Shown here: piece by piece, positions 1 to 60,699 of the stretch
How positions within the stretch are numbered: the first letter of the stretch is position 1
Layout: each line of letters opens with the position of its first letter
Assembly (NCBI GenBank): GCA_964035015.1
Contig: OZ036005.1
Span: 5,092,747-5,156,746 of the forward strand
Source: Corallium rubrum
Lineage: Eukaryota > Cnidaria > Anthozoa > Scleralcyonacea > Coralliidae
Length of the DNA stretch: 64,000 bases
Direction of reading: 5' to 3'
Made by a program: the position numbers and the translations under genes
The notes under the pieces: generated by a model
Databases searched by the model: none
What the model saw: only the letters and a program-made list of their open reading frames with translations
Told to the model about the DNA's origin: nothing

Positions 1-77
1 TGCTTTAATCGCGCAATGTATATAACATCCTCAGAATGTTACAACAACTCAGTTCCAATGATATAGTGTAAAAATAC

Positions 78-135
78 CTGCATGTAAGCAAACAAATGCC
101 AAGGCAATAACTGCGAGAACACCAAGACACTTCAT
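78..135 (-). CDS. Secreted precursor-like protein, copy 1, exon 1 only
   Basis: This is the first coding exon of the small secreted protein family that is complete at 16726-17422 and 33088-33787. It encodes a 19-residue hydrophobic signal peptide beginning MKCLGVLAVIALAF and ending CLHA, plus the first base of the next codon. The exon ends in a canonical donor (CAG|GTATTT on the minus strand), phase 1. The second exon would lie to the left of base 1, so the gene is truncated by the window edge and its integrity cannot be judged. The nucleotide sequence here and for several hundred bases upstream is nearly identical to copy 2, which supports a segmental duplication. The start ATG is the only one in frame and is the same in all three copies. 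Function is not recognised. Confidence 0.6.
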
Positions 136-654
136 GATAAAAAGTTCACACTGTTTTCTTCTCTCAGAACTTCGGGTTTCTTGATCTTAACCAACTTTCT
201 CGGAGGTTTCCAACTGGAAGTGAATGCTCTGCTGCAGACGTTCGTCTTTTAAACTCTCTTCATTGTTCACATGACAAAACTTATTCGAAAACAAGTGCTG
301 AAGCCAGTGAAGGCTTTCAGAAATTTGCTAAAACCTAAAATAATTTTGGCAATAGATTAGAGTTATTTATTTAATGGTTTAGCATAACAAATAACAAATA
401 TGTCAAGTATCCACAAATCATTCACTCCACACTTGCATGCCAGTGCCGTATTTTCAAATCAAGTTAAATTATTTTTTGATTAAGATTTTCATTAATTTTG
501 GCTTCAATTAAAATATAACATGTAACTTTCAAGATTCTGTAAAATATTTCCCCAAAATGCAGAAAATGGCAGTTCAAGGACTCTACTGAATTTCAAAATT
601 TTCTCGAAAAAAAACTTCGGCCTACATTTTTGCGCACTATATCCATTCGTAACT
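136..654. other. 5' flank of copy-1 gene; empty site of the virus-like element
   Basis: There is no gene here. The stretch matches 17423-17731 joined to 23949-24170 in copy 2 and diverges more from copy 3 (from 33788). The single TGCATG at 434-439 is the unoccupied equivalent of the site where the 17732-23948 element sits in copy 2. No convincing TATA box is visible upstream of the gene. Confidence 0.55.
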
Positions 655-1110
655 GTGGTTGGCTGAGTAGAAACGATTTAATGAAAGCGGAGGAAGTTAG
701 AGTGGATTAAGGTAAAATTAAGGAAACAAACAAATTTTCAACAATTACTGAGCAAGTTTGGGATTGTTGAAGAAAGAGGGATTTTAAGGTGTGCTGCATG
801 GAAGATTAGTGAATTCCGATCTAGAAACTGAAGCGTGAAGACCAGTTATTCTCCCAAAAGAACACGGCGATTAACAGAGTTACTAATAGACGATTGTCAC
901 AACAGTCAACAGGGTCCATCATGATGGGGTAAGGGCTACTGTTACGTAATTAAAGTCGACGTATTGGGTTCCTAAAGGTAGACAAGTTGTTAAGAAGGTA
1001 ATAAAAACTTTCTTGGTGGGCAAAAAAGTGGAAGGAAAACCCTATAAAAAACCCTATCGAAACAGGTTGGCCCTGGCCTTGCTGCTTTAATCCAACAACT
1101 ACAAAATGCA
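655..1110 (+). pseudogene. BEL/Pao retrotransposon integrase-region remnant, copy 1
   Basis: Translating with frameshifts recovers a recognisable stretch: a segment like WIKVQSKLRKQTNFQQLL, then a 'GILRCAGRL' box, 'RPVILPKEH', and finally a zinc-binding-like region with 'LVCKKVEGKP'. This order (RCAGRL, PILLPKEH, HH-CC zinc finger of the integrase) is typical of BEL/Pao polyproteins. The reading frame is broken by stops and small indels, so it is dead. The same fragment recurs at 24176-24615 and 34560-35210. It therefore predates the segmental duplication. Confidence 0.6.
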
Positions 1111-8500: not shown

Positions 8501-8689
8501 AACCTGAATGTCAGGCCTTTATTTGTTCCCGCCTTCCGCTAAACCCGGCAGCGCGGGCAGAGGTGCGGGCGAGCGAGAAGGCCCTGAGGAAACTCTTAAT
8601 AAAACCGTCTTCCGCCCACTTTGTTATTTTTAAAAATTAACGAGATATGATTGATATTGTAGTATCCGGTAAGATAGTCATGCAAGGGA

Positions 8690-9144
8690 TCATGGGTAAG
8701 ATAGACCACGAGGGGGGACTTGAAACATGGAGACTGAATAAAGTATGTAAATATTACAATGGCGACGAGGATGGGATTTATCAGCCGGTTCTCGCAACGC
8801 TCGCTTCCGAAATCTGGCGGATTTACAATGCTGAATAACTTGCGATAAGATCTCACCGTCCGTGTTTACAAAAGCACAGGTTTTCGCTAGCTGTCGAAGT
8901 TCAGTCACAAACTCATCCAACGACTGCTCATCCTTTTGTTTACAGCTTCTGAAGGTGTAAATGTCTTTGGTTCAAAATATTTTATAAGTACTTCTTTAGT
9001 TGCTTTGTATGTGTCCTCACTCTCGGCCTTTTCTGCTTCATAAATATCATACACCCTTTCCCCAGCATAATGCAGTAAGAGAGCTCGTCGTCTCTTTTCA
9101 CAATCAAAAGACGGAAATGCAGGAAGATTTTGCATAGTATCCAC
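8690..9144 (-). pseudogene. Ty3/gypsy-type Gag remnant
   Basis: Two adjacent minus-strand frames give pieces typical of gypsy Gag. The first, 8905-9144, contains FPSFDCEKRRRALLLHYAGE, then VYDIYEAEK and VLIKYFEPK. The second, 8690-8920, contains DEFVTELRQLAKTC and ILSQVIQHC. The order matches a Gag core, but a frame change near 8910-8930 and loss of everything downstream make it non-functional. No zinc knuckle, protease or RT follows. It lies between the two arms of an internal inverted repeat. Confidence 0.6.
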
Positions 9145-9770
9145 TGAAATAACGTACTAATTTTAGTTTTGTTTCGTTTTTATCTTTGAATTCCTTCGTA
9201 TCCTCGTCGCCATTGTAATATTTACATACTTTATTCAGTCTCCATGTTTCAAGTCCCCCCTCGTGGTCTATCTTACCCATGACCCCTTGCATGACTATCT
9301 TACCGGATACTACAGATATGTGTTGTCAAAAGCAAAGCGTATCTTTTGATTTCATCCCACAGAAATATATAGTCTTTCTCCGCGTCTGGTTTTAGTCCAG
9401 ACTAGTCTAGGTCGTCTAGGTATAGACTTGCAATAAATACACGAGCTCGAATTGAAGGCGTTTGTCCATGGTATCTAGACCCGATCTAGAGAAGAAGTCG
9501 AATAAAAGATAATACACGATTTGATAGCCGCTTTGATATAGTTTCGACTAAATTAATAAAATATATAATTTTGTAGCACAGGCTAAAACGTTGGAGAAAA
9601 GGATCGACTGGATATTGATGTTTTACTGTATTAAAAACAAACGCCATCGTTTGGGAATTATTTTATACAGTTTTAGAATTTAAATTTTAGAATGAAGGTA
9701 GGCCATTTAATATATTGATACATATAAATATAATTATAAACACGTCTCAACCATATAAACTCAGTCATCC

Positions 9771-11270: not shown

Positions 11271-11570
11271 TAGCCACACACTGCACATATTTGCTTGTGG
11301 AGTAGGCTAAAGGTTTTTGTCCCATTTGAGGCAGCACTTCACTTGCGATAGTAATTTCTAGTTTATGTTCTTTATATAAAGTGTACTACGAATCCGCTGC
11401 AGCATGAGGTAAGAAGCAAGAATTTTGTTATTGTAGTTTGGTATGGGGGTTAGTCCGAGTTAGTCTTGATGCGTATAGAGCAGCGATCGGATTGTTTAAC
11501 TGTTTAAAAATTTCGATTTCGATTTTTCGTCCTGTTTTAAAGCCGATTTGTCTCTATTGTAGGTGTTTTA

Positions 11571-12197
11571 TTGATTGTCATATTTATTGTCTATATTAAC
11601 ATCATTCTGTCCAATGACGTCGAACTGGAGCCAAGACCTTCTACCTCCTTTAAATTTGGCCATTTAAATTTTAGAAGTTTGAATATTGACGAAAAGTTTG
11701 ATGAATTGTCTTTTCTTCTTAAAGAAAATAATTTCCATATTTTTGCCTTGACTGAAACGCGGCTTAATGATTGTATAAACACTGATTTTTGGATTCCTGG
11801 TTACAATCCTATTGTTCGTCTTGACAGAGATGAAATAATAGGAGCCAGGTGCATGGTGTTGCCTTTTTTATCGCCGACTAGCTCCCTTGTGGTTAAGCGT
11901 AGGAAAGACTTAGAATTGACTGGTTTTGAGCTTTTGTGGGTTGAATTTCGTATAAGGGAACGTGATTTCCTTTGTGGTGCGTGTTATAGGCATCCGGATA
12001 ATGATAATGCATCTTGGTCTTTTTTCTTTGATACTTTTCAGCAATCGCTTGATAAAATACGACTATTGGCGAAAAAATTCAAAGTTGTTATACTCGGCGA
12101 TTTCAATGCGCATTATAATGAGCAGTTTCCTTGTGAGATTACTGAAGTCGGAATGCAATTGCACAGTTTTTGGAAGGTAATGACCTTGTGCAACTAA
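11571..12197 (+). pseudogene. LINE endonuclease domain (CR1/L2-like)
   Basis: This is the 5' coding part of a non-LTR retrotransposon. Its first ~25 residues include NDVELEPRP, a decayed form of the 2A-like DVELNPGP motif often seen at this place in CR1/L2-type elements. An APE-type endonuclease follows: LNFRSL (asparagine motif), ALTETRLND (catalytic glutamate), CYRHP, and VVILGDFNAH (the GDFN box). The frame breaks after about 208 residues, and later parts of the ORF appear downstream in other frames. Homologous C-terminal segments lie at 12343-12600, 12832-12990, 14060-14688 and 15490-16293. Confidence 0.75.
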
Positions 12198-12990
12198 TTT
12201 CTGAGCCAATTAACTCGCGTTACTCAGCGAAGTTTTCACAATCTTATAGACCTACTGATAACTTAATTGCTCAGGAGATTTTACTAACACCGGCATTCTT
12301 AGTCCACCATCAAACTGCGACCATTCAATTATTTTTGCTGAAATGAATATTTGTTTCCATAGATCTCTCTCCATAAAAGGGATGTGTGCATGGAAATTTA
12401 ATAATGTTGACACCTTGAACCTGAATATAGAGCTTATGCAAGTGAATTGGAATTATCGTTTAGAAAATGAGACTGATATAGATGTAGTTTATGAAAATTG
12501 GTATAAGCAATTTCGCTATATAATTAGAGATGCAAAGAGCTCTTATGAAAAATTTAATAAAGATCTGAGTGACCTCTCCATTAACAACAAAAAGTGGTAG
12601 GCAATTGCGAAACGTATTTATAACGGTGATAGTAAGCCCTCTTCCATTCCAACAATTGTAGAAAACGAGGTTTCGGTAACGGATCCTAAAGAAAAAGCTT
12701 GTATTTTTAATGATTATTTTATTGCTCAAACTGAACTGGATGGAGCTAACAATACTCCCCCAGAGTTTTTACCGTTTCAGATTTCTAAATTTCTTTCGGA
12801 TATTGTTGCAACTACTCAGGAAGTTCTAATTTTGATGACCAGCGCTGATAAATCTAAAGCTTGTGGTCACGACGGCATAGGTAATAAAATAATTAACCTT
12901 TGCTGGGTTTTTACCAGTTTTATAAACTTATCTTTCAAGTTGGGAAAATATCCGTCCCAGTGGAAATTAGCAAATGTCATTCCTTTATAC
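12198..12990 (+). pseudogene. LINE linker and first part of reverse transcriptase
   Basis: Frameshifted stretches continue the LINE: 12343-12600 (linker between EN and RT) and 12832-12990, with KSKACGHDGIGNKIIN followed by SFKLGKYPSQWKLANVIPLY. This is the start of the RT domain (the S-x-GxDGI and W-K-A-x-V-x-P-L motifs). The reading is cut at 12995 by a hairpin-ended insertion and resumes at 14054. Confidence 0.7.
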
Positions 12991-12995
12991 AACAA

Positions 12996-14053
12996 GACGC
13001 CTGCTCAGGCGTTCACTCGGGCTACTGATTTCTGAAAGCTTGGCGTAGCCTATGCGAATTTTAGCAAGACAAAATAGCAATGGCAATGGCAATGGCAATG
13101 CATTATGCATAATTGCATATATTTTGACAAATAAAATTTATGGTCTTATATGAAATGTAGCAGTGCAGGAAGCGCCGAAGGTTTGCTAATTGTAATGTAT
13201 TAAAACAACAAAGCCGTTTTCTGAAACTCAAACAACGGATCTAATATATTTAGTAGACAAAACCGATAGTGTCGGATTCGGCAGATTCAAGCGATCATTT
13301 TGATATAGAATTTATTTAAATTCGGACAAACAGAAAATATTTAAACATGTTTTGAAACACACGTATTGATATCTTATCGGTATTTGCTCTATTCGGTACT
13401 TAATAATAATATTATACTTGCATTTTGTAGTTGTTGGACTATGAAGCAGCATGCCAGGGCCAACCCGTTTTGAAATAGCCCGTCATCTTTCACGTACAAG
13501 GTCTATCGCGATCGCCGGCGTGTGCAGTTGTAAACACATGTAAGCCTTTGTATTTAAAGCATGTTTAGTGATGAAGACAATTGCCAGCCACATTATTGAT
13601 CAACTATAACTCGGTCATTTGCAAACGGTAAAGCTATTCAAACAAGGCGAAAGCCGTTACTAGGTAAACAGTACGTATATGTTCTTTGATATATTGTGCC
13701 CCTTTGTTGTGTCTCTAGTGCTCAAGTCAAACTTCATAGGTACTGATGTCAACACGGCGGGCATTTTTTCCCGTCTGTAATAAATTCGTCTATTCTGTCT
13801 TCATGGACAAACATTGTCAGCGACATTACTGATAAACTACTCATGAATTCACCAATATCCTCGGAAAACACCCCAACCCAACCAGATCAAAGGTAAAAGA
13901 ACTCGAAAAAATCGAGCACGCAACATGCCTTACAGTTTCGCAAGGCCTGACGGGATGATGCAATAATGCAATTTTGTGGAACCCCCCACAAAAAAAAAGA
14001 AAGAAAAAAAGCCGAAACCTAGACTGACTCGGCCTACCACAGGTAGCCCGAGT
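12996..14053. mobile_element. 1.06-kb hairpin-ended insertion inside the LINE
   Basis: It interrupts the RT coding sequence, which continues in sense as NRQFKVDYRPVSLLPSLSK directly after it. The left end is a GACGCCTGCTCAGGCG hairpin followed by TTCACTCGGGCTACTG (type ii). The right end is the hairpin CTCGGCCTACC-ACA-GGTAGCCCGAGT (type i). The shared ACTCGGGCTAC makes a short inverted repeat. No clear target duplication is seen. Parts (12997-13060, 13255-13480) match 1045-1365 in reverse. Hairpins near both ends without target duplication are reminiscent of Helitron/Helentron elements, but the diagnostic ends are not proven. Confidence 0.5.
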
Positions 14054-14059
14054 AAAAAG

Positions 14060-14688
14060 GAAAACCGTCAATTTAAGGTAGACTATCGCCCGGTCTCGTT
14101 GTTGCCCTCGCTCTCAAAAATTTGCGGAAAAAATAGCATTTATTCGCCTTTATAATTTTTTATACTATTATCAATCTAGTTTTAGACCTTGTGATTCTAC
14201 CGTCGACCAATTGATATATATTGTTCATCAAATTTACTTAGCTTTTGAAGAAGGCAAAGAAGTGCATGTAGTTTTTTTAGACATAAGTAAAGCCTTCGAC
14301 AGGGTGTGGCATGCAGCTGATTTGCAAACTTGAGGCACTCGGTGTCAGGGATCCTTTGTTAAAGTGGTTTGATAGTTATCTTAAAAACAGAAAACAGCGT
14401 GTTGTTATTGAGGGTCAATCATCTGAATGGAGGGGAGTAAAGTCAGGTGTACCGCAAGGGTCAGTCCGTGGCCCGTTGTTACTTTTTGATATAATAAATG
14501 ATATTACACTTGGTCTTGATTCCCACCCATTCATCTATGCTGATGATACAATGCTTTTCGAGACTGTTGAGAATAAGGATGTTTCTGCAGATCATTTAAA
14601 TAATGATTTGTTGAAAATTTCTGAATGGTCGAATAAGTGGCTTATCACCACGAAACCTTCCAAATCTCGTAGCATGGTGTTTTCATAA
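14060..14688 (+). pseudogene. LINE reverse transcriptase, central part
   Basis: RT motifs appear in order. VDYRPVSLLPSLSKI opens the segment, then HVVFLDISKAFDRVWH (motif A with the first catalytic Asp), LLKWFDSYLKNRKQRVVIEG, GVPQGSVRGPLLL (motif B), and FIYADDTMLF (motif C, the YADD catalytic pair). A stop or frame change lies just after DRVWH near 14330. The catalytic residues are intact, but the ORF as a whole is broken in several places, so the copy is dead. Confidence 0.8.
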
Positions 14689-16725: not shown

Positions 16726-17422
16726 CTAAAGTTTAGCATTCCAACAAAACGCACACCACCAGGGACAACCTCCCTGCACATTTCTTTTTACTAGGTTACT
16801 GACTATGGAATCTTGACGACATCGATTCAAGTGAATTTCCAGCCCAATTTTGCAATACTTTGTGCCACGTCCCTTGATACGACTTTGAATTTCCCGAACG
16901 AATTTTGAGCCGAGATTAGATGACAGGACTTCGGCGTGTAAGCGTTCCTCTAAAACGCCTTCCCAGTAAGCAGCCTCCGAACACTTCGCAGTCACCATGT
17001 AGCGGATCGTTTTCTTCACTCTCTTGTCTCCATTTTCGTCGGTTTCAATGGCACTTTCCACGGTTTTTTTGAATCCAAACTTTTCCAAGTTTGCCTCTTT
17101 CAAAATCTTGAACATTTCGTCTTTAGATAACTTCAGTTCAGGGTCAAACACACGAATGACATCGGTCTCAGCCCCATCTACATGCAATAAAAGTTAACAT
17201 TCAGTAAAATTTTATAATAGATCAACAGTAGAATTTTTCAAACTGGACTATACACTCTATAGGTTAACGAACGAGTGCATGCAGGTCTGCTTTAATCGCG
17301 CAATGTATATAACTTTCTCAGAATGTTACAACAACTCAGTTACAATAATATAGTGTAAAAATACCTGCATGTAAGCAAACAAATGCCAAAGCAATAACTG
17401 CGAGAACACCAAGACACTTCAT
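16726..17422 (-). CDS. Secreted precursor-like protein, copy 2 (two exons)
   Basis: Exon 1 (17365-17422) encodes the signal peptide MKCLGVLAVIALAFVCLHA and ends phase 1 at CAG|GTATTT. The 187-base intron ends TGTAG, and exon 2 (16726-17177) continues with DGAETDVIRVFDPE. Together they are 510 nt, 169 residues plus stop. After the signal peptide comes a ~115-residue charged region with one Cys in TAKCSEAAYW and two in YCKIGLEIHLNRC. A dibasic VKR and an 18-residue tail with three Cys (CxxxCxxC) follow. This layout (signal, pro-region, KR, Cys-rich tail) resembles secreted peptide precursors, including defence-type peptides, but that is inference. I do not recognise the family. The frame is intact. 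The gene is paralogous to copy 3; the pro-region is about four-fifths identical. Confidence 0.7.
17178..17364 (-). other. Intron 1 of copy-2 secreted-protein gene
   Basis: 187 bases with GT at the 5' end and AG at the 3' end on the minus strand, phase 1. The corresponding intron in copy 3 (33546-33729) has the same phase and nearly the same length. Confidence 0.65.
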
Positions 17423-17725
17423 GATAAAAAGTTCACACTGTTTTCTTCTCTCAGAACTTCGGGTTTCTTCATCTTATAACCAACTTTCTCGGAGGTTTCC
17501 AACTGGAAGTGAATGCTCTGCTGCAGACGTTCGTCTTAAACTCTCTTAATTGTGCACATGACAAAACTTATTCGAAAACAAGTATTGAAGGCAGTGAAGG
17601 TTTTCAGAAATTTGCTGAAACCAAAAATAATTTTGACATTAAGATTAGAGTTATTTATTTAATGGTTTAGCATAACAAATAACAAATATGTCAAGTATCC
17701 ACAAATCATTCACTCCACACTTGCA

Positions 17726-17731
17726 TGCATG
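17726..17731. repeat. Target-site duplication TGCATG, left
   Basis: TGCATG directly precedes the element's terminal AGTAGATGAC and recurs directly after its right end at 23949-23954. The homologous unoccupied site in copy 1 (434-439) has TGCATG once, and TGCA-repeat variation accounts for four extra bases on the left. Confidence 0.75.
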
Positions 17732-17890
17732 AGTAGATGACCCCCCCCATATGGTGTATCAAAGGGATGCCGCCTCATTAAATATTCAGCGTGACTCACG
17801 CATGACTCACGCATGACTCACGCATGACTCACGCCTGTGACATGTTTGGACAAGACTGGAATATAGTTAGTGCGCATGAAGTTATATAAA
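17732..17890 (+). repeat. Terminal inverted repeat, left
   Basis: It runs AGTAGATGAC, a C run, ATATGGTGTATCAAAGGG, then 3-4 tandem GACTCACGCAT motifs, ACATGTTTGGACAAGACTGG, and ends at an inward-facing TATATAAA (17883-17890). The TATA-like box could serve the 88-aa ORF downstream. Confidence 0.8.
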
Positions 17891-18124
17891 TTGAATAATA
17901 TGGAGACTTTGAATATTATATTAACCTTTATGATCAAACGGTCTTATACACGTTTTGTGGCAATAAGTGTTAACAAGTTTAGAGAGTTATCGTTTACTTT
18001 GGCCTAGTTTGTAGAGGAACGAAACAGAAATGGATAGAGACACTTTATATTTTTTATCTTAAACCTGGTTTGTAGGAATTTAGCGGGTTTTTGGTTAAGT
18101 AATCTTAGTGTTATTTACGAAGAG

Positions 18125-18391
18125 ATGAATGTTGACAGTTTTGGTGGAATTATCGCTTATCTAACCCTAGTGTATAGAGTATACGAATCCTTGGATGAAG
18201 AATCAATTCGAGAAGCCGTAAAAAGAAGAACGATCAATGATTTCATGAGAAAATATAAACGGAATAACTCTTCAAGCTGGTTGCTACGCTTTCTGTTACT
18301 AACTGTGATATTTGCATATTTATCTCAGTGCACGTGCAGGAGACAAAAGAGAAACTCATTAGGGGCAATTATGAGGATTAGGCAAGTCTAG
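18125..18391 (+). CDS. Small membrane-like protein of the element, 88 aa
   Basis: This ORF starts inside the left unique segment and enters the palindrome arm at its residue 52. Residues 1-50 are polar, with a charged helix-like segment SLDEESIREAVKRRTI. Residues 53-68 are strongly hydrophobic (LLRFLLLTVIFAYLSQ), a likely single membrane span, followed by a basic tail. A diverged and broken version lies on the minus strand of the right half (about 22883-23030), where a segment like DEESLREIVKRTIL is followed by a stop. Purifying selection on the left copy is possible but untested. The TIR TATA-like box lies about 240 bases upstream. Function is unknown and the family is not recognised. Confidence 0.45.
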   Translation: MNVDSFGGIIAYLTLVYRVYESLDEESIREAVKRRTINDFMRKYKRNNSSSWLLRFLLLTVIFAYLSQCTCRRQKRNSLGAIMRIRQV

Positions 18392-18461
18392 GCGAGAAAG
18401 TCATTAACAACACGCGTACATGTAATACAGAATTTAAACTATTTTATTGAGAAATATATCT

Positions 18462-19136
18462 TTACACAAAAAACTCTTGATTATTTAGTGATCTATCGGT
18501 AACACTAGCATATGGGCATACAGTACATCTTATAATCCGAAGGCATGGATCATGAGTCTTGAATTCTGTACCACAAACATTACATATCAGATTTCGAATA
18601 ACACATTTGTTAAAATATTTCCACAAACACGTAGGACACTCAATTACATGTGTAAAATTAACAGGATTCTGACAACGTTCGCAATCAACAGGTTCGTCAA
18701 TTATAGAATTTTCTGATTCTATTTCGGTGTAATCTTTATCGTGTTCTGAATCTTCTTCGGAGGACGTTTCTTCGTTTTCGCTCTCTGATTCTGTTTCTTC
18801 TTCTGCCTGCGCCAACATTGTCAGCACTCGAACATTTTCGATAAGGTTTTTGTCAATGTTAATGTCGGCGAGTCCTTTTACAAATACATTTAGACCAGCT
18901 GGTTCGGGAATTCCTGAGACGTAAGGTGATACGCAGTATTCTACCAATTCGGCTATTTTTGTGTTTGGTATAGTTCTTCCTTGATACACAATTTCTCCTT
19001 TGGGATTCCATGTTAAGTTGACATAGGACGCGAGTAAACTATTCAGTAAAGAAGACGCTGTCGCTTCATCGACTCCGTAGTCAAAGTGTGACAGTATTTC
19101 TTTAACACGAAAATCATCATGTAATCTTTCTCCCAT
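18462..19136 (-). CDS. Cys-rich acidic protein of the element, 224 aa (left copy)
   Basis: The translated protein is identical to that at 22025-22699 in the other arm. Residues 1-110 form an ordered-looking domain with LVEYCVSPYV and GLNVFVKGLADI. Residues 112-143 are a Glu/Ser acidic stretch (EEETESESENEETSSEED). Residues 152-207 carry ten Cys: C152-x2-C155, C167-x2-C170, C178, C185-x2-C188, C198, C204-x2-C207. This suggests a zinc-ribbon or RING-like treble fold. Such a layout fits a regulatory or DNA-binding viral protein, but I do not recognise the family. It is followed by the 105-aa gene on the same strand, 44 bases upstream. The intact frame in both arms suggests recent duplication or continuing homogenisation. 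Confidence 0.6.
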   Translation of the reverse strand: MGERLHDDFRVKEILSHFDYGVDEATASSLLNSLLASYVNLTWNPKGEIVYQGRTIPNTKIAELVEYCVSPYVSGIPEPAGLNVFVKGLADINIDKNLIENVRVLTMLAQAEEETESESENEETSSEEDSEHDKDYTEIESENSIIDEPVDCERCQNPVNFTHVIECPTCLWKYFNKCVIRNLICNVCGTEFKTHDPCLRIIRCTVCPYASVTDRSLNNQEFFV

Positions 19137-19180
19137 CGTGTTCAGGGTTCGAATGAGGGTCTTTACAAAATATCGTTCTT

Positions 19181-19498
19181 TTATATTAGTTCTGCGAGTC
19201 CGTCTAAAACAGGACCAAGTAAGACATCAAGAAATCCTGCACCTTTTTGAACCAGTATCTCCTTTTTTCTCATAAAACTACTTCGGGGACTAGCCAAAGT
19301 TGATATGTCGTCGCTATAAGGCTTAACGTCTTCAAGCAAAGCAGGTGATAATTGATATTGCATTGACCAAAAGTTCAACATACAATCACAAATGCATCTA
19401 ATTTGCTCGGGGTTTGCAGTCTCCAACAGGGCTCGCTGTTGAATAGGTTCACTTGTACATAAAAGTTCAAGAAACGGTTTGTGCTTTTTCATCAACAT
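19181..19498 (-). CDS. Small conserved element protein, 105 aa (left copy)
   Basis: The protein has a helical Leu-rich N-terminal half (FLELL, then RALLETANPEQIRCICDCML), a middle with ALLEDVKPYSDDISTLA, and a basic to hydrophobic end, RKKEILVQKGAGFLDVLLGP. From memory, small proteins with this Leu-rich start and a terminal 'LVQKGGFL..LL' motif recur in animal Polinton/adintovirus-like integrated elements, possibly as a virion or core-like product. I cannot verify this here. It differs from the right-arm copy at about two residues (K5N and C14R). It lies between the 224-aa gene and the GA-rich tract. Function is unassigned. Confidence 0.55.
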   Translation of the reverse strand: MLMKKHKPFLELLCTSEPIQQRALLETANPEQIRCICDCMLNFWSMQYQLSPALLEDVKPYSDDISTLASPRSSFMRKKEILVQKGAGFLDVLLGPVLDGLAELI

Positions 19499-19554
19499 CT
19501 CTATTTGACAGTCAGTCTCTAAATGAGGAAAACGCTACCAAAACACACATTTTA

Positions 19555-20243
19555 AGAGGAGGAGGAGGAGGAGAAAGAGGAGGAGGAGAAAGAGGAGAAA
19601 GAGGAGGAGAAAGAGGAGGAGGAGGAGGAGAAAGAGGAGGAGGAGAAAGAGGAGGAGGAGAAAGAGGAGGAGGAGGAGAAAGAGGAGGAGGAGGAGAAAG
19701 AGGAGGAGGAGGAGGAGGAGAAAGAGGAGGAGGAGGAGGAGGAGGAGGAGGAGGAGGAGAAAGAGGCGAAAGAGGAGGAGGAGGAGGAGAAAGAGGAGGA
19801 GGAGGAGAAAGAGGAGGAGGAGGAGGAGAAAGAGGAGGAGGTGGAGGAGGAGGAGAAAGAGGAGGAGGAGGAGAAAGAGGAGGAGAAAGAGGAGGAGGAG
19901 GAGAAAGAGGAGGAGGAGGAGGAGGAGAAAGAGGAGGAGGAGAAGAAAGAGGAGGATGAGGAGGAGGAGGAGGAGAAAGAGGAGGAGGAGGAGGAGAAAG
20001 AGGAGGAGAAAGAGGAGGAGGAGGAGAAAGAGGAGGAGGAGGAGGAGAAAGAGGAGGAGGAGAAGAAAGAGGAGGAGGAGGAGAAAGAGGAGGAGGAGGA
20101 GGAGGAGAAAGAGGAGGAGGAGGAAAAGGAGAAAGAGGAGGAGAAGGAGGAGGAGGAGAAAGAGGAGGAGGAGGAGGAGAAAGAGGAGGAGGAGGAGGAG
20201 AAAGAGGAGGGGAAGGAGAAAGAGGAGGAGGAGAAATAAATAA
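19555..20243. repeat. GA-rich polypurine tract, left arm (~690 bp)
   Basis: Irregular repetition of AGGAGGAGGAGAAAG units with only occasional interruptions. The plus strand is polypurine. Six-frame ORFs through it (Glu/Lys-, Arg/Gly- or Ser/Phe-rich) are consequences of the repeat. Together with the inverted tract at 20743-21606 it can form both a cruciform and triplex-type structures. Confidence 0.9.
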
Positions 20244-20290
20244 TATGACATTCTCTAGAAATTTTTATTCTGCTCATGCTCTTCAACGAG

Positions 20291-20685
20291 AGATCATCGA
20301 GGACGATCAGGTTACGTTGAGAGACTTCAAGAAAATTATCAGAGTCAATGTCGGAAGGTATACCCTCGTAGAATTCGATGCCTGGTATTGTCTTGATCAT
20401 TTCTAAATACATGGGCTGCCATTGTCCATAACACCAAATGATACGTTCGGGAGGAGGATTAATCGTAGTTTGGGCGTTTTCCAGCAGCGTTTTTACCCAT
20501 ACTGTTTTACCACTCTGTGTGCATCCAGCGACAATGCAAGTAAATGGATGCTGCATGACTGTTGCGTCATTGAGAAGATGTGCTGGTCTTGAATAAGTAC
20601 TGTTTTTATGGAAATTTTTTATATGACGTTGCATGTTGAATAGTGTAGAAAACGTTTTTCCACAAGTGCTGCAGACATAAGACAT
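20291..20685 (-). pseudogene. Zinc-finger genome-packaging ATPase, 5' part, truncated
   Basis: Starting at the ATG at 20685, the protein opens with a C2H2 finger (C5-x2-C8-x12-H21-x4-H26). An FtsK/HerA (A32-like) ATPase domain follows, with Walker A GCTQSGKT (residues 54-61) and Walker B LIVLDD (126-131). Such ATPases package DNA in Polinton/adintovirus and related double-jelly-roll viruses, usually over about 200-250 residues. Here the coding sequence stops matching immediately after Walker B, where the left arm begins. Sensor and arginine-finger regions are missing, and the frame runs into the arm and GA-rich tract. It cannot be a working ATPase. I chose this Met because the finger follows at once; the in-frame Met at 20736 lies in the arm. 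Confidence 0.7.
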
Positions 20686-20690
20686 GTTCA
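20291..20690. other. Loop of the palindrome (400 bp unique)
   Basis: This is the only non-duplicated sequence between the two arms. It consists almost entirely of the start of the ATPase gene on the minus strand. Both edges carry the same motif (CTTCAACGAG at 20281-20290 and CTCGTTGAAG at 20691-20700). That is where the fold-back joint formed. Confidence 0.85.
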
Positions 20691-20742
20691 CTCGTTGAAG
20701 AGCATGAGCAGAATAAAAATTTCTAGAGAATGTCATATTATT

Positions 20743-21606
20743 TATTTCTCCTCCTCCTCTTTCTCCTTCCCCTCCTCTTTCTCCTCCTCCTCCTCCTCTT
20801 TCTCCTCCTCCTCCTCCTCTTTCTCCTCCTCCTCCTTCTCCTCCTCTTTCTCCTCCTCCTCCTCCTCCTCCTCCTCTTTCTTCTCCTCCTCCTCTTTCTC
20901 CTCCTCCTCCTCCTCTTTCCCCTCCTCCTCCTCTTTCTCCTCCTCTTTCTCCTCCTCCTCCTCCTCTTTCTCCTCCTCCTCCTCCTCATCCTCCTCTTTC
21001 TTCTCCTCCTCCTCTTTCTCCTCCTCCTCCTCCTCCTCCTCTTTCTCCTCCTCCTCCACCTCCTCCTCTTTCTCCTCCTCCTCCTCCTCTTTCTCCTCCT
21101 CCTCCTCTTTCTCCTCCTCCTCCTCCTCCTCCTCTTTCTCCTCCTCCTCCTCCTCCTCCTCTTTCTTCTCCTCCTCCTCTTTCTCCTCCTCCTCCTCCTC
21201 TTTCTCCTCCTCCTCCTCTTTCTCCTCCTCTTTCTCCTCCTCCTCCTCCTCTTTCTCCTCCTCCTCCTCCTCATCCTCCTCTTTCTTCTCCTCCTCCTCT
21301 TTCTCCTCCTCCTCCTCCTCCTCTTTCTCCTCCTCCTCCTCTTTCTCCTCCTCTTTCTCCTCCTCCTCCTCCTCTTTCTCCTCCTCCTCCACCTCCTCCT
21401 CTTTCTCCTCCTCCTCCTCCTCCTCCTCCTCCTCTTTCTCCTCCTCCTCCTCCTCCTCTTTCTCCTCCTCCTCCTCTTTCTCCTCCTCCTCCTCCTCTTT
21501 CTCCTCCTCCTCTTTCTCCTCCTCCTCTTTCTCCTCCTCCTCCTCCTCTTTCTCCTCCTCTTTCTCCTCTTTCTCCTCCTCCTCTTTCTCCTCCTCCTCC
21601 TCCTCT
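20743..21606. repeat. CT-rich polypyrimidine tract, right arm (~864 bp)
   Basis: CTCCTCCTCTTTCTCC-type units, the inverted partner of the left GA-rich tract with different internal lengths. The difference in length argues against a simple duplicated-read artefact. Confidence 0.9.
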
Positions 21607-21662
21607 TAAAATGTGTGTTTTGGTAGCGTTTTCCTCATTTAGAGACTGACTGTCAAATAGAG

Positions 21663-21980
21663 ATGTTGATGAAAAACCACAAACCGTTTCTTGAACTTTT
21701 ACGTACAAGTGAACCTATTCAACAGCGAGCTCTGTTGGAGACTGCAAACCCCGAGCAAATTAGATGCATTTGTGATTGTATGTTGAACTTTTGGTCAATG
21801 CAATATCAATTATCACCTGCTTTGCTTGAAGACGTTAAGCCTTATAGCGACGACATATCAACTTTGGCTAGTCCCCGAAGTAGTTTTATGAGAAAAAAGG
21901 AGATACTGGTTCAAAAAGGTGCAGGATTTCTTGATGTCTTACTTGGTCCTGTTTTAGACGGACTCGCAGAACTAATATAA
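21663..21980 (+). CDS. Small conserved element protein, 105 aa (right copy)
   Basis: Inverted duplicate of 19181-19498. It retains the Leu-rich start, the RKKEILVQKGAGF motif and the LLGPVLDGL end, with Asn and Arg where the left copy has Lys5 and Cys14. The frame is intact. The Arg14 version looks the more conservative one, because the left copy's Cys is unusual in an otherwise basic/Leu context; that is inference. The 224-aa gene follows 44 bases downstream on the same strand, suggesting co-expression. Confidence 0.55.
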   Translation: MLMKNHKPFLELLRTSEPIQQRALLETANPEQIRCICDCMLNFWSMQYQLSPALLEDVKPYSDDISTLASPRSSFMRKKEILVQKGAGFLDVLLGPVLDGLAELI

Positions 21981-22024
21981 AAGAACGATATTTTGTAAAG
22001 ACCCTCATTCGAACCCTGAACACG

Positions 22025-22699
22025 ATGGGAGAAAGATTACATGATGATTTTCGTGTTAAAGAAATACTGTCACACTTTGACTACGGAGTCGATGAAGCGA
22101 CAGCGTCTTCTTTACTGAATAGTTTACTCGCGTCCTATGTCAACTTAACATGGAATCCCAAAGGAGAAATTGTGTATCAAGGAAGAACTATACCAAACAC
22201 AAAAATAGCCGAATTGGTAGAATACTGCGTATCACCTTACGTCTCAGGAATTCCCGAACCAGCTGGTCTAAATGTATTTGTAAAAGGACTCGCCGACATT
22301 AACATTGACAAAAACCTTATCGAAAATGTTCGAGTGCTGACAATGTTGGCGCAGGCAGAAGAAGAAACAGAATCAGAGAGCGAAAACGAAGAAACGTCCT
22401 CCGAAGAAGATTCAGAACACGATAAAGATTACACCGAAATAGAATCAGAAAATTCTATAATTGACGAACCTGTTGATTGCGAACGTTGTCAGAATCCTGT
22501 TAATTTTACACATGTAATTGAGTGTCCTACGTGTTTGTGGAAATATTTTAACAAATGTGTTATTCGAAATCTGATATGTAATGTTTGTGGTACAGAATTC
22601 AAGACTCATGATCCATGCCTTCGGATTATAAGATGTACTGTATGCCCATATGCTAGTGTTACCGATAGATCACTAAATAATCAAGAGTTTTTTGTGTAA
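22025..22699 (+). CDS. Cys-rich acidic protein of the element, 224 aa (right copy)
   Basis: It is identical in protein sequence to 18462-19136: N-terminal domain, acidic residues 112-143, and a ten-cysteine C-terminal region (four CxxC pairs). A polyadenylation-like AATAAA lies about 15 bases after the stop (22714-22719), suggesting its 3' end. The left copy has the same signal in mirror position. Function is not recognised. Confidence 0.6.
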   Translation: MGERLHDDFRVKEILSHFDYGVDEATASSLLNSLLASYVNLTWNPKGEIVYQGRTIPNTKIAELVEYCVSPYVSGIPEPAGLNVFVKGLADINIDKNLIENVRVLTMLAQAEEETESESENEETSSEEDSEHDKDYTEIESENSIIDEPVDCERCQNPVNFTHVIECPTCLWKYFNKCVIRNLICNVCGTEFKTHDPCLRIIRCTVCPYASVTDRSLNNQEFFV

Positions 22700-22882
22700 A
22701 GATATATTTCTCAATAAAATAGTTTAAATTCTGTATTACATGTACGCGTGTTGTTAATGACTTTCTCGCCTAGACTTGCCTAATCCTCATAATTGCCCCT
22801 AATGAGTTTCTCTTTTGTCTCCTGCACGTGCACTGAGGATAAATATGCAAATATCACACTTAGTAACAGAAAGCGTAGCAAC

Positions 22883-23060
22883 GCTTTCAAAGTAATAAAC
22901 TGCTTTGCCTTTATATATCGACACTTAAAATCGTTCTTTTCACGATTTCTCGAAGTGATTCTTCATTCTATCTTCCTACAATTTCCTCACTTATAAAGAA
23001 GGGTTTAGTTAGCAATAATTCTAGGATGACTTACTCTGTTTGAATATTTAGGTGTAATGC
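22883..23060 (-). pseudogene. Decayed right-half copy of the 88-aa ORF
   Basis: On the minus strand a stretch like GAATGAAGAATCACTTCGAG corresponds to codons for DEESIRE of the left ORF, followed by a basic segment and then a stop (TAA after GTCGATATA). Identity is clearly lower than in the arms and the frame is broken. This shows that the original inverted duplication was longer than the part now nearly identical. Confidence 0.45.
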
Positions 23061-23212
23061 TTTTTATTGCTATTAGCCGGATACTTTAATGTCATCGCCC
23101 CAATTAACCCCTCATGAGATTTATTATACGGGGAAGACAACATAACGAGTATTTCATTGTACCCTTTACTGATTTGGTGGTTCTTAAAAGAACCGTTTGT
23201 GTTTAGTAGATT

Positions 23213-23767
23213 TTATTGGAGCGCTATCCATTTGCCAAAGGCTTCGACTTTCGGACAGTGATGGTATGCATTAATCTTTGTGTGATTTCCACACGTTTGC
23301 AGCCATGTCAAGGCACCAAATAAATGTTCTGCTTTTGGACAGCCGAAACTTTCTAGGTTGACGGACGGAATTCCCAGCTCCTTTAAAACTGTACGCTCTA
23401 AGTTTCCACCTTTGAACGCAAACTTCGACGTATCGTCAATTTTAACTTCTTCATAAATTTGCCAAATTATGTCTCCCAAACACTCAATCTTATAGTACTT
23501 GGTGTATGGGGGGACACCAAATGGTAAATGGTGAATGTTTTTTTCAACCCATCTACAATTATACTTTTCTCTACTTGACAAGTCAGCCCATTTCTTGCCA
23601 ATGTCAAAGAAGAACGATAAACCTTCGGTTTCTCCGACCTTCAGAACGCCTAGTTCTTTACAGAAGAACTTCTTTCCTATGTGAAAACCATCCATGTCAA
23701 TCACGGCAACTATATCACACAGCGACATTACGTATGGATAAGTAAAATACTTTTGGAAAAGTAACAA
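23213..23767 (-). CDS. DMDGF-type protein of the element, up to 184 aa
   Basis: An intact minus-strand ORF outside the palindrome, next to the right TIR. It has IVAVIDMDGFHIGKKFFCKE near the start, a middle with KYNCRWVEKNIHHLPFG, and a Cys/His-rich end (GCPKAEHLFG, CGNHTKINAYHHCPKVEAFG). The MSLC Met at codon 14 (about 23728) is the likelier start. It precedes the DMDGF motif closely and lies about 58 bases from the inward TATA box (CTATATAAG, 23794-23786). I recall proteins of this type in other animal virus-like integrated elements but know no characterised function. The Asp-x-Asp at the end of a hydrophobic strand would suit a metal-dependent nuclease of RNase H type; that is speculation. 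It has no partner in the left half. Confidence 0.55.
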   Translation of the reverse strand: MLLFQKYFTYPYVMSLCDIVAVIDMDGFHIGKKFFCKELGVLKVGETEGLSFFFDIGKKWADLSSREKYNCRWVEKNIHHLPFGVPPYTKYYKIECLGDIIWQIYEEVKIDDTSKFAFKGGNLERTVLKELGIPSVNLESFGCPKAEHLFGALTWLQTCGNHTKINAYHHCPKVEAFGKWIALQ

Positions 23768-23785
23768 CTATACGAAATCACCAAG

Positions 23786-23948
23786 CTTATATAGCTTCAT
23801 GCGCACTAACTATATTCCAGTCTTGTCCAAACATGTCACAGGCGTGAGTCATGCGTGAGTCATGGTGCGTGAGTCATGCGTGAGTCACGCTGAATATTTA
23901 ATGAGGCGGCATCCCTTTGATACACCATATGGGGGGGGGTCATCTACT
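23786..23948 (-). repeat. Terminal inverted repeat, right
   Basis: Inverted copy of 17732-17890, with one small insertion among the tandem CGTGAGTCATG motifs and an inward-facing TATATAAG at its inner edge. It ends GTCATCTACT, followed by the TGCATG duplication. Confidence 0.8.
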
Positions 23949-23954
23949 TGCATG
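23949..23954. repeat. Target-site duplication TGCATG, right
   Basis: Matches 17726-17731. The following CCAGTGCCGTATTTTC continues the copy-1 sequence at 440 onward. Confidence 0.75.
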
Positions 23955-24175
23955 CCAGTGCCGTATTTTCAAATCAAGTTAAATTATTTTTTGATCAAGA
24001 TTTTCATTAATTTTGGCTTAAATTAAAATATAACATGTAACTTTCAAGATTCTGTAAAATATTTCCCCAAAATGCAGAAAATGGCAGTTCAAGGACTCTA
24101 CTGAATTTCAAAATTTTCTCGGAAAAAAACTTCGGCCTACATTTTTGCGCACTATATCCATTCGAAACTGTGGTT

Positions 24176-24615
24176 GGCTGAGTAGAAACGATTTAATGAA
24201 AGCGGAGGAAGTTAGAGTGGATTAAGGTAAAATTAAGGAAACAAACAAATTTTCAACAATTACTGAGCAAGTTTGGGATTGTTGAAGAAAGAGGGATTTT
24301 AAGGTGTGCTGGAAGATTAGTGAATTCGGATCTAGAAACTGAAGCGCGAAGACCAGTTATTCTCCCAAAAGAACACGGCGATTAACAGAGTTACTAATAG
24401 ACGATTGTCACAACAGTCAACAGGGTCCATCATGATGGGGTAAGGGCTACTGTTACGGAATTAAAGTCGATGTATTGGGTTCCTAAAGGTAGACAAGTTG
24501 TTAAGAAGGTAATAAAAACTTGCTTAGTGAGCAAAAAAGTGGAAGGAAAACCCCATAAAAAACCCTATCGAAACAGGTTGGCCCTGGCCTTGCTGCTTTA
24601 GTCCAACAACTACAA
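24176..24615 (+). pseudogene. BEL/Pao integrase-region remnant, copy 2
   Basis: The same decayed fragment as 655-1110, with 'GILRCAGRL', 'RPVILPKEH' and 'KKVEGKPHK'-like pieces in shifting frames. In this copy the codons around the last motif are less damaged. It ends at the same point (a segment like NRLALALLL), then AT-rich sequence. Confidence 0.6.
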
Positions 24616-24719
24616 AATGCAAGTATAATAATAAGCACCGAATAGAGCAAATAAGATACTGTTTGTATGTCTAGATATCGTTTAGGTGTCCGTGTCGTAT
24701 TACATTTGAAACGTGTGTT

Positions 24720-25170
24720 TCAAAACATGTTTAAATATTTTTTAAAACATGTAAAAACGCCAACGAATTTAATACGCTTTTAATATATTTTAACGCTTTT
24801 AATATATAAAGCATTATAATCAAACTGTTTCTCCGTTCTCTATATTTTCGCTGCTGAAGAAACGGTGAAACGTAGCAGCCTAGTCTTGTCTTTTCTCTTT
24901 AGCTTTTCTGGGTGTCGAGAATCACTTTTACAGCCACTCAATAAATTATCTTTGATGTGGGGTCATGTGCCGCGGTTAATATATAGGCTATTGACCTTGC
25001 ATATTAAATGACCTAGCTACTATATCGCTTTAAAACTACGTCTAGAATACTATTTTTTTGGTAAATAACGACAAATATCGTCTGTATCATGAATAAACTA
25101 AATCAGTTAATTACCTCGAAGTCGGTATAACTAAGCTAAAGTTAACTCCTCGGTAATTAACTCTTATTTA
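24720..25170. other. Deletion joint of copy 2 relative to copy 1
   Basis: After CGTGTGTTTCAAAACATG the sequence jumps to the equivalent of 4251 in copy 1 (CGCCAACGAATTTAATACGC). About 3 kb present in copy 1 is absent here. No gene is present. Confidence 0.5.
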
Positions 25171-29439: not shown

Positions 29440-30375
29440 ATATAGGAGACCTAGATTGCTGACTCGGCTGAAGAGGCGCGCCAAATTTGAAAATCCAAGA
29501 TGGCGGCTCAACCGGTCAAAAATCATAGACAGTGCATAGGAAAAACGAGGTTTTTCGCATTTTACGTCCGCCCACTGTTTCCGATCCCGTTCGACCACCT
29601 TTTTTTGGGAAGAACTACCTATTGTGAAGGTCTTGGATGAAAATCGTACAATTTGAGTGGAACTAACAACAAAATAATCGATCGTTAAATGTTGTCGAAA
29701 CAGTCACTTGCGGTCACTTGGTCGGTTCGAGACATTTCTGGCCGAAAATAAAGGTTTTGGTTAGTTTTGAGGTGTTGGAAGATTCTAGGACGTTCTGTGT
29801 AAGATACGAGATGGAAAGCTTACGTGTTAGTCAGTTAGTGGACAAACAGATAGCGATCTGTCCTCAGCAATTTTCACTATTTTGTAGAGTATAGTTATAC
29901 ACTACGCATTAACTCCAGTGAACATTTTACTATCTAATTAGCTTCTTTTAAACACGAAGTATTATATACATCTTTTCGTTAAAAGACAGAATTTTACTTC
30001 AACAAGTACATTTAACCCAAAATTAGCTTTATAAAGCATATTATACTATACAATCTGCAGCAGCAATCAGGTGAAAGTTCCAGTTCTATATCTATGATTG
30101 GCAAACAAAAAACATTTAACGATCGATTATTTTGTTGTTAATTCCACTCAAATTGTACGATTTTCATCCAAGACCTTCACAATAGGTAGTTCTTCCCAAA
30201 AAAAGGTGGTCGAACGGGATCGGAAACAGTGGGCGGACGTAAAATGCGAAAAACATCGTTTTTCCTATGCACTGTCTATGATTTTTGACCGGTTGAGCCG
30301 CCATCTTGGATTACTCATGTTGGCGCGCGCGTGCGCTATAAATTATATTACAGTCAGCAATCTAGGTCTCCTATA
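29440..30375. repeat. Palindromic element, ~260-bp arms
   Basis: The arms 29440-29700 and 30110-30375 are inverted with few differences; an insertion of GCGCGTGCGCTATAAATT-type sequence distinguishes the right arm's outer end. The outermost bases read TATAGGAGACCTAGATTGCT on the left. The loop of about 410 bases is AT-rich. ORFs at 29278-29598 (minus) and 30098-30388 (plus) are two views of the same arm, not a gene. Confidence 0.65.
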
Positions 30376-33087: not shown

Positions 33088-33787
33088 CTAGTACCCAATT
33101 TCAGCTTTCCCACAAATAAAACAAATACCACACGGCCGCCCCGCACTTCTTTTCTCTATGTTACTGGTTACCAAGGAATCTTGACGACATCGTTTCGGGT
33201 GAATTTCCAGCCCAATTTTGCAATACTTTGTGGCACGTCCCTTGATGCGACTTTGAACTTCTCGAACGAATTTTCGGCTGAGTTTAGATGAGAAAAAATC
33301 GGTGGGTAAGCGACTCTCTAAAACGCCTTCCCAGTAAGCAGCCTTTGAACACTTAGTAGTCACCATGTAGTGGATCGTTTTCTTCACTCTCTTGTCTCCG
33401 TTTTCGTCGGTTTCAATGGTGCTTTCCACGTCCTTTTTGAAACCAAACTTTTCCAAGTTTGCCTCTTTCAAAATCTTCAACATTTCTTCTGTAGATAACT
33501 TTACTTTAGGGTCAAACACACGAACGACATCGGTCTCAGCCCCATCTGCATACAATAAGAGTTAACATTAAGTAAAATTTTACAATAGACAGTAGAATTT
33601 TTCAAACTCTTTAGGACTACGCTCTATAGGTTAACGAACAAGTGCATGCAGGTCTGCTTTAAGTGCGCATTGTATAACTTTCTCAGGATGTCACAACAAC
33701 TACACAACATCAGTATAGAATAAAGATACCTGCATGTAAGCAAACAAATGCCAAAGCAATAATTGCGAGAACACCAAGACACTTCAT
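33088..33787 (-). CDS. Secreted precursor-like protein, copy 3 (two exons)
   Basis: Exon 1 (33730-33787) encodes a signal peptide with one change from copy 2 (Val9 to Ile) and ends phase 1 at CAG|GTATCT. The intron (33546-33729, 184 bases) ends TGCAG. Exon 2 (33088-33545) continues DGAETDVVRVFDPK. The CDS is 516 nt, 171 residues plus stop. The pro-region keeps TKCSKAAYW and YCKIGLEIHPKRC. It ends in a dibasic EKR followed by a 19-residue tail with three Cys (CxxCxxC). Compared with copy 2, the three tail Cys align while nearly every residue between them differs, and one codon is inserted or deleted. Both genes have open frames and matching splice sites, so both may be expressed. Biological role is not recognised. 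Confidence 0.7.
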
Positions 33788-34154
33788 GATAAACTGTTCG
33801 TACTGTTTTCTTCTCTTAGAAATTCTGGTTTCTTGATCTTAACCAACTTTCTTGGAGGTTTCCAACTGGAAGACAGTGAATACTCTGCTGCAGAAGTTCG
33901 TTTTTTAAACTCTCTTAGTTGTTTACATGACAACGCTTATTCGAAAACAAGTGCTGAAGCCAGTGAAGGGTTTCAGAAATTTGCTGAAACCAAAAGTAAT
34001 TTTCGCAATAGGATTATAGAATTATTTATTTAAATTGTATTAAGTTCATGGGAAGAAGGGATATTGTAAAAATAGCTACATGTACGACACGCATGCCAAA
34101 TTGCATGAAAGGGGACATTGTAAAGTCGTCAGATTGGAATCAGAGATCGCAACC

Positions 34155-49602: not shown

Positions 49603-49654
49603 ATGTTTGGGATTAGTTGAGCTGATTTCACCATAAAATATGTACAGAACTACA

Positions 49655-60030: not shown

Positions 60031-60099
<69 letters not shown>

Positions 60100-60665: not shown

Positions 60666-60699
<34 letters not shown>

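Follow-up and report, generated by a model that had tools for sequence, protein, structure and literature searches.

Palindromic Polinton derivatives spread as ready-made palindromes in the genome of Corallium rubrum

The window analyzed here is a stretch of 64,000 nucleotides from Corallium rubrum, and at 17732-23948 it holds an insertion of 6,217 bp with terminal inverted repeats (TIRs) at its limits, TGCATG on both flanks, and inverted arms within. The question is whether such an element is a single defective genome that was copied back on itself, as a sequence-only reading had proposed, or one copy of a palindromic Polinton lineage, which that reading had foreseen if other copies were to exist. 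The family in the genome is the place to look for the answer, and there palindromic Polinton derivatives spread as ready-made palindromes. The explanation that we prefer, and regard as probable, is a family of elements derived from Polintons (Mavericks) that integrate as a long near-palindrome, with the window element as one of its copies. The features on which this is based are collected in Table 1.

Table 1. Features of the window element and its surroundings (window positions; a dot marks a feature without strand)
Feature	Position	Strand	Remarks
Empty site	1..1042	+	Paralogous host repeat without insertion
Target site duplication (TSD), left copy (TGCATG)	17726..17731	.	Compared with the empty site
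Left TIR	17732..17891	+	Ends AGTAGATGACCCC; contains 11-bp tandem repeat
Left end module (LOUT)	17892..18323	+	
ORF-A, 88-aa open frame	18125..18391	+	Intact across left arm edge
Left palindrome arm	about 18283..20290	+	Includes purine array
224-aa open frame, left copy	18465..19136	-	Distant relatives P0001, P0002
105-117-aa open frame, left copy	19184..19534	-	Without Pfam match
Polypurine array, left	19556..20235	.	680 bp
Loop	20291..20690	-	400 bp; partial ATPase gene
Packaging ATPase (Polinton-type)	20291..20690	-	First 131-132 codons; N-terminal C2H2 finger
Right palindrome arm	about 20691..22877	-	
Polypyrimidine array, right	20746..21606	.	861 bp
105-aa open frame, right copy	21663..21977	+	Without Pfam match
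224-aa open frame, right copy	22025..22696	+	
Right end module (ROUT)	22838..23786	-	
171-aa frame	23213..23728	-	DEDD 3'-5' exonuclease-like fold; 65 relatives (protein search)
Right TIR	23787..23948	-	
TSD, right copy (TGCATG)	23949..23954	.	Compared with the empty site

The limits of the insertion are well drawn. The TIRs are about 160 bp long and differ by 1 substitution and by small indels, which lie in a run of C and in a short tandem repeat. The flanks, when joined, align to the empty paralog over 1,049 columns with 1,009 identities and 13 gap columns, and the element is absent there; relative to this paralog, the filled copy has 4 additional bases (CATG) by the left TIR. The TIR-bounded insertion with a 6-bp duplication is thus borne out, and the Polinton-type assignment agrees with the termini, the TSD and the packaging ATPase.

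The roughly 2-kb inverted arms around a 400-bp loop are also as first described, and cannot be a chance likeness because of their length alone. A perfectly matching inverted block covers 1,106 bp (18324-19429 = 22837-21732), and the match is exact for 164 bp outward of the loop. As far as the array, the unique part of the arms contains 3 substitutions, all of which adjoin the array, an uneven placement that was tested post hoc, after being noticed. The two arrays have an identical order of units and are 10 substitutions and six indels apart, the largest indel being 186 bp. The palindrome stops short of both TIRs in this copy, and the outer segments are not mirror images of each other. They have a diverged likeness adjoining the arm edge, 73% over 139 columns, and the comparison of 18130-18280 with 22880-23030 scores above 1,000 of 1,000 shuffles under three scoring schemes. 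Farther out, between 17892-18130 and 23030-23784, similarity is absent, with 294 to 980 of 1,000 shuffles scoring equally high. ROUT, which holds the DEDD-exonuclease-like gene, is therefore unlike the left end except for the diverged stretch at its inner edge. The proposed snap-back architecture stands in this copy as to the inverted arms and the asymmetric centre, and fails as to the ends, where the palindrome does not reach the TIRs and the right end is another module.

The loop ATPase is truncated just past the Walker B motif, so only the first half of this FtsK/A32-like packaging gene, a mark of Polintons and Mavericks, is found in the window. A protein search with it returns 277 relatives at E<=1e-3, with the PF04665 (Pox_A32) annotation on many of the 120 listed. 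The counterpart of ORF-A on the right side is diverged and broken. The 105-aa protein may resemble the adenovirus-pX-like proteins of Polintons. For the 224-aa protein, the structure model had a mean pLDDT of 44 and was set aside as too weak. A family-B polymerase gene is missing from the element, as had been noticed; none of the 8 frames scanned matches one, and the longest frame has 254 codons (array-opened frames aside), into which a polymerase of about 1,200 aa cannot fit. The 8 frames scanned in the window region give no match to an RVE-type integrase either, and the scanned frames of the element give no Pfam match to major or minor capsid proteins or to a protease. Relatives were looked for in IMG/VR, prokaryote genome contigs and phage records, and none were found there.

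To see the family, matches to the loop were collected in the 474-Mb source genome. The best 40 of 478 candidates were scored, at 97-100% identity, and since only these 40 were scored the sample is biased toward window-like copies. Twenty loci were fetched at 9.8 kb, and at all 20 the arm is present in both orientations, with both arms over 1 kb in 14, whereas in 6 the second arm is truncated, interrupted or runs off the end of the fetched sequence. There is more than one central joint in the family. Two of the 40 loop matches, the window included, have the window joint; 30 have one common second joint, which surrounds the full ATPase; 2, both at locus L017, have the ATPase start on both sides; and 6 are unresolved. 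A 55-bp segment beside the ATPase start is on both sides in the window form and missing on one side in the common form.

The search for a second copy of the window joint, which had been suggested as a check, found it at another locus, L009, and with the inverted arms at all the fetched loci this substantiates the palindromic lineage. L009 is 5,417 bp long, has its own TSD (CACGCT) and the 55-bp segment on both sides, and is symmetric to both TIRs, 93% of the element being in inverted register around one 386-bp centre. LOUT is present at both of its ends, so here, and not in the window copy, an end is duplicated and inverted up to both termini in the way of a snap-back genome. L017 has 92% of its length in inverted register. 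At L013 most of the second arm is replaced by another ATPase gene, with 43% identity, and by further frames, leaving only 2% in inverted register, and at L010 one end carries a module related to ROUT. We dropped the idea that a single parent had the left and right ends of the window copy as its native pair, since L009 carries the left module twice.

A perfect 6-bp TSD, different each time, flanks 12 of the 15 elements tested (window included; L014, L018, L020, L021, L024 and L025 were excluded), which is a raw count. The ends across copies read AGTAGATGACCCC, AGTAGATAACCCC, AGTAGTGATACCCC and AGTAGTAATA, all of the AG/AGT type, and 11 bounded copies of the ATPase form are 5.4-8.1 kb long. At least 12 elements have therefore entered the genome in separate events, each as a complete unit between its TIRs. 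Of the 20 fetched loci, 12 have an unbroken ATPase frame of 443 aa, and of the 40 copies found of the 224-aa frame, 32 keep their full length. Among intact frames pN/pS is 0.18 for the ATPase and 0.26 for the 224-aa frame, values that this selection biases downward; one frame survey was confined to frames of ordinary complexity that stop short of the inner edge. The picture of a single defective genome does not hold, as there are many copies, and since the frequent sister form with the full ATPase keeps many intact frames, "defective" may misname it.

In other palindromes that have the window TIR type, each side holds a family-B polymerase gene. At least 4 head-to-head pairs of such genes have window-type TIRs at their ends (counted among the 27 matches listed for one profile segment, with 76 of 1,079 candidates scored), and the TIRs of all four are 82-90% identical to those of the window. 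A perfect 6-bp TSD with AGTAGATAACCCCC ends is found in 3 of the 4, which are 11.4-12.9 kb long. What is known of these palindromes comes from their ends and polymerase genes.

Given such relatives with the same TIR type, mobilization in trans is plausible. Another way to see the palindromes is as non-autonomous hitch-hikers that resemble large MITEs and have no function in their own right, the activity belonging to ordinary Polintons of full length. Many TIR elements are non-autonomous, and polymerase, integrase and capsid genes go unrecognized in the window-element frames scanned; however, the intact ATPase and 224-aa frames, their low pN/pS (on intact frames only, with the bias noted) and the polymerase within palindromes of the same TIR type all speak against it, and we think it somewhat improbable. 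Nor did a full-length Polinton come to light, in a genome search that on this point covered the polymerase family. It overlaps with the preferred explanation and differs on which element is active. A virus-like genome may even be divided into palindromic pieces. We put forward tentatively, as a minority reading, that one Polinton genome could be spread over several separately integrating palindromic segments with a common TIR type and shared copying and integrating proteins, with two copies of the polymerase as the main content of one kind of segment and the packaging ATPase and its neighbor genes on another kind, so that the palindrome would be the normal replicating form. The arms would then stay alike because one arm suffices to complete each new copy.

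Within copies, the arms are alike beyond chance expectation. With arms under 1,000 bp dropped before counting, the nearest arm in the arm tree is from the same copy for 23 of 34 arms (any arm of that copy counts, and L021, L024 and L026 each add a second arm on the same side), against a mean of 1.17 and a maximum of 7 in 1,000 label shuffles; the other 11 are closer to an arm of another copy. Measured by plain distance, 17 of 32 arms are strictly closest to the opposite arm, and 4 more are ties. The window arms group with copies of the second joint type, and the arm variants of L009 and L012 do not assort as simple one-arm copying predicts. Own-arm substitutions over 15 pairs number 16 in the outer half and 32 in the other half, as raw counts in which one of the two right arms of L026 was used.

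As for how the palindromes arose, we infer snap-back replication. A full-length parent was not among the elements seen, so this is a proposal in both direction and mechanism, and that half of a genome was copied back, as the sequence-only reading had it, may or may not be the case. In the preferred explanation the element would run from a TIR through an end module, the 224-aa and 105-aa genes and a purine array to a single ATPase gene, and from there through an array and the same genes inverted to the other TIR. A protein-primed strand begun at one TIR would switch to its own complement, and the product would gain a second copy of one end with its TIR while the other end is lost. At the window joint the broken ATPase and the arm have one base in common; the switch would there have jumped 400 bases, and the joint is compatible with a template switch. 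The 400-bp-loop form would most likely be a second snap-back within the family with the full ATPase at its centre, and the window copy may subsequently have recombined with some other member of the family, which gave it its different right end. Proteins provided in trans would replicate and integrate each palindrome, and the polymerase palindromes may be the source of the polymerase.

The number of snap-backs is a related matter. One snap-back followed by uneven central deletions could yield some of the joints, and it might be argued that a single founding event made them all, the others being later uneven deletions or gene conversion at an unstable palindrome centre. One joint does dominate, and deletion from a form like L017 could give the shorter ones, but simple deletion from the common form does not give the window and L009 form, which has the 55-bp segment on both its sides, and the matching unit order of the two purine arrays in the window copy also weighs against it. 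We take a single founding event to be unlikely; it is a variant of the preferred explanation and compatible with it. That the second arm is a false duplication by the assembler is very improbable and was dropped, since, for all that palindromes are classically prone to misassembly and the data are assemblies and not reads, the insertion as a whole is delimited by its TSDs and by an empty paralogous site, the arm arrays differ, the joint recurs at another locus, and 12 perfect TSDs are all different. The fusion of two oppositely oriented Polintons by a chromosomal deletion, to which the different end modules of the window copy could point, is just as improbable and was also abandoned, as a single TSD brackets the element, the empty paralog has the flanks joined without a break, and the joint recurs in L009 between matching end modules and with a separate TSD.

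In viruses, snap-back genomes are known by-products, and here they are an integrated, amplified family with many insertions, so that palindrome birth, arm likeness and the exchange of ends in protein-primed linear elements are readable from one genome. Should the palindromes with the polymerase and those with the ATPase prove mutually dependent, they would form a segmented Polinton-like system. Either way the family bears on whether Polintons spread as viruses, as transposons or as both.

Among known systems, the large inverted arms and short centre are like those of Foldback and Galileo DNA transposons. Those elements have other TSD lengths and are not known to carry a packaging ATPase or a family-B polymerase, and the elements here have a 6-bp TSD and Polinton-type ends. 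Snap-back adenovirus genomes are linear and protein-primed, repeat one end, inverted, on the far side of an asymmetric centre, and need helper functions; Ad12 SYREC is reportedly such a symmetric genome, and small adenovirus genomes are also produced through recombination between inverted repeats. The Corallium palindromes are like them in the doubled end and the asymmetric centre, and unlike them in being integrated and multicopy with their own TSDs. No description of palindromic Polintons was found in the titles and abstract openings of the open-licence literature. With Polintons and Mavericks, the Corallium elements share the 6-bp TSD, AGTAG-type termini, the FtsK/A32-like ATPase, and the family-B polymerase, which is here in TIR-sharing elements. 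Polintons and Mavericks are described as 15-20 kb long, and the TIRs of vertebrate Mavericks are 46-1,447 bp, a range that includes those of the window, with the end motif (AGT)2 (PMC4028283, PMC8097293, PMC10045372). Compared with the lengths given there, the Corallium elements are short, at 5.4-8.1 kb in the ATPase form and 11.4-12.9 kb in the polymerase form. They also differ from Polintons and Mavericks in that integrase and capsid genes are unrecognized in the window frames, that ATPase and polymerase are in separate elements, and that the elements themselves are near-palindromic.

The near-palindromic Polinton derivatives form a family whose members entered the genome on many occasions as units bounded by TIRs. 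In 12 of the 15 elements tested, out of 21, the AGTAG ends directly adjoin a perfect 6-bp TSD that differs from element to element; the scan required a TSD, so that a false one is possible in principle. The window element has AGTAGATGACCCC at its start and the inverse of it at its end, TIRs of ~160 bp, and a copy of TGCATG on either side. It sits in a host repeat of which the window also holds an empty paralogous site, matching the joined flanks with 1,009 identities in 1,049 columns, so the TIR-bounded insertion with a 6-bp duplication proposed in the sequence-only reading stands. The filled copy has 4 additional bases, CATG, beside the left TIR, which were either already in the target or brought by the insertion.

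Features of the window and of related loci in the source genome (window coordinates unless stated)
Feature	Position	Content
Host repeat, first copy	1-1329	empty site at 1-1042, without element
Host repeat, second copy	16769-17728 with 23949-24741	contains the window element
Host repeat, third copy	33136-35470	
Window element	17732-23948	6,217 bp
Arms	about 18283-20290 and 20691-22877	224-aa frame, 105-117-aa frame, purine-rich array
Loop	20291-20690	first 131-132 codons of ATPase with C2H2 finger, motif GCTQSGKT
Short inverted repeat	8658-8772 / 9200-9314	99% complementary, ~420 bp apart; resembles small foldback element
Short inverted repeat	29476-29693 / 30111-30328	96% complementary, ~420 bp apart; resembles small foldback element
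Broken LINE-type frames	11541-14688	reverse transcriptase (PF00078), endonuclease-like (below cut-off)
tRNA-Ser (anticodon AGA) tandem array	46519-49603	277-bp units, 11 genes, minus strand
Two more tRNA-Ser units	60095-60668	277 bp, opposite orientation
Probable assembly gap	59242-59441	200 N bordering long ATAG repeat
DEDD-exonuclease-like frame	L010:6955-7569	intact; 59% protein identity to window's
Second packaging-type ATPase gene	L013:5553-6383	different from the first, 43% identity
Family-B polymerase match	G000 (source genome) C15:1465907-1467388	in 2,570-aa open frame, about twice usual length

The inverted arms around a loop of ~400 bp noted in that reading are present. At the window joint, the ATPase stops after GATGATCTC and the inverted arm follows, with one base common to both, the native continuation being known from other copies. 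The 2 arms have an identical block of 1,106 bp, and the other three substitutions in unique arm sequence all adjoin the array, an uneven placing that three randomly drawn positions would show with a probability of ~0.001 (a post hoc calculation). Unit order is the same in the 2 arrays, but they are set apart by 10 substitutions and by indels that include one of 186 bp; hence the array is older than the duplication, and the arms are distinct sequences rather than a single one used twice.

The loop was searched against the 474-Mb source genome, and the best 40 of 478 candidates were scored, window included, all 97-100% identical to the window loop. From these, 20 loci of 9.8 kb each were retrieved. 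Every one holds the arm in both orientations, which bears out the conditional suggestion of a palindromic Polinton lineage; both arms reach at least 1 kb in 14 of 20, and the remaining 6 have a second arm that is shorter, broken into pieces or truncated at the edge of the stretch. The window joint occurs in 2 of the 40 matches, the window's own and that of L009. This element lies at another locus, has its own TSD, CACGCT, carries the left end module on both ends, and is in inverted register over 93% of its length. In 30 of 40 (17 in one batch and 13 of 17 in another) the joint is of a second type, with the ATPase central and the array picking up again after the same AACAAATAAAC border. The two sides of the locus L017 give 2 more, where the start of the ATPase is present on either side and the inverted register extends over 92% of the length, outer ends excepted; joints of uncertain type make up the remaining 6 (L015, one of two L024 matches, L029, L033, L042 and L045). 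Because 30 of 40 matches have the same second joint, the common form looks like one lineage that spread once its palindrome existed. A 55-bp segment beside the ATPase start is on both sides in the window form and absent on one side in the common form, so that the window form needs a further event. In the arm tree, the window arms group among common-form copies.

The left end module stands at both ends of L009, so the reading that fits best is that the window copy is a recombinant, with the shared module on its left and a right end from a different member of the family. The palindrome L010, whose joint is the common one, carries at one end an exonuclease-bearing module related to the window's right end. 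In L013, the second ATPase gene and further frames stand where most of the second arm would be, and thus gene modules seem to pass between these elements.

Arms of the same copy tend to resemble each other. In the tree of arms of at least 1 kb, the nearest arm is from the same copy for 23 of 34, where 1,000 label shuffles gave a mean of 1.17 and a maximum of 7; when plain distances are used, 17 of 32 arms lie strictly closest to their opposite arm and another 4 are tied. Own-arm differences become rarer outward (16 in the outer half versus 32 in the inner half, 15 pairs), whereas variable columns across all arms are commoner outward (94 versus 64). The former fits exchange or re-copying beginning at the ends, as might happen if single strands formed panhandles via the TIRs. 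Variants in L009 and L012 do not sort by arm, which counts against simple copying of one arm.

An uninterrupted ATPase frame of 443 aa is present in 12 of 20 retrieved loci, and the 224-aa gene was found as 40 frames, 32 of them full length. Counted on intact frames, pN/pS comes to 0.18 and 0.26, ratios biased downward by this selection. Either these genes are in use, or a source under selection keeps renewing the palindromes.

There are also palindromes with polymerase genes and a TIR like the window's. With the Pfam model DNA_pol_B_2, 199 matches came from the 76 of 1,079 source-genome candidates scored, where one gene may match in two stretches; many lie within open frames of ~1,200 aa. Among the matches listed, 27 are of one kind; eight of these form four pairs set head to head no more than 15 kb apart, none pair up on the same strand, and the other 19 have no partner there. 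The first pair, with both outer stretches retrieved, is one 12,285-bp element with TSD GACCTC and AGTAGATAACCCCC at its ends; its outer arms agree at 99.7% over a length of 2,182 bp, and its TIRs are 89-90% identical to the window's. Its outer 2.2 kb contain no closed frame above 99 aa, low-complexity frames set aside, and two ~1,200-aa frames would leave little room in 12.3 kb, as far as the outer stretches tell. For the other three, ~1 kb was retrieved at each expected end, and all have a TIR 82-88% identical to the window's; the TSD is perfect in two of them (GATGTT, 12,878 bp; TATATT, 11,437 bp), and with the end motif used no TSD was found for the remaining one. A second family-B kind (matches 8-194 / 208-365) has many frames of ~1,360 aa and no head-to-head pair noticed among the matches listed, and may come from different elements, which could be full-length ones.

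The palindromes would have arisen by snap-back during protein-primed copying, with integration by a Polinton integrase and polymerase supplied in trans. A divided palindromic Polinton is a possible but less likely reading; nothing found speaks against it, and it needs integrase and capsid genes. At E ≤ 1e-3 the loop ATPase has 277 relatives, of which the top-scoring one shares 73% identity and many are annotated as PF04665, the family of poxvirus A32 packaging ATPases; a packaging ATPase of this type is, in a passage of PMC4028283, a Polinton core gene.
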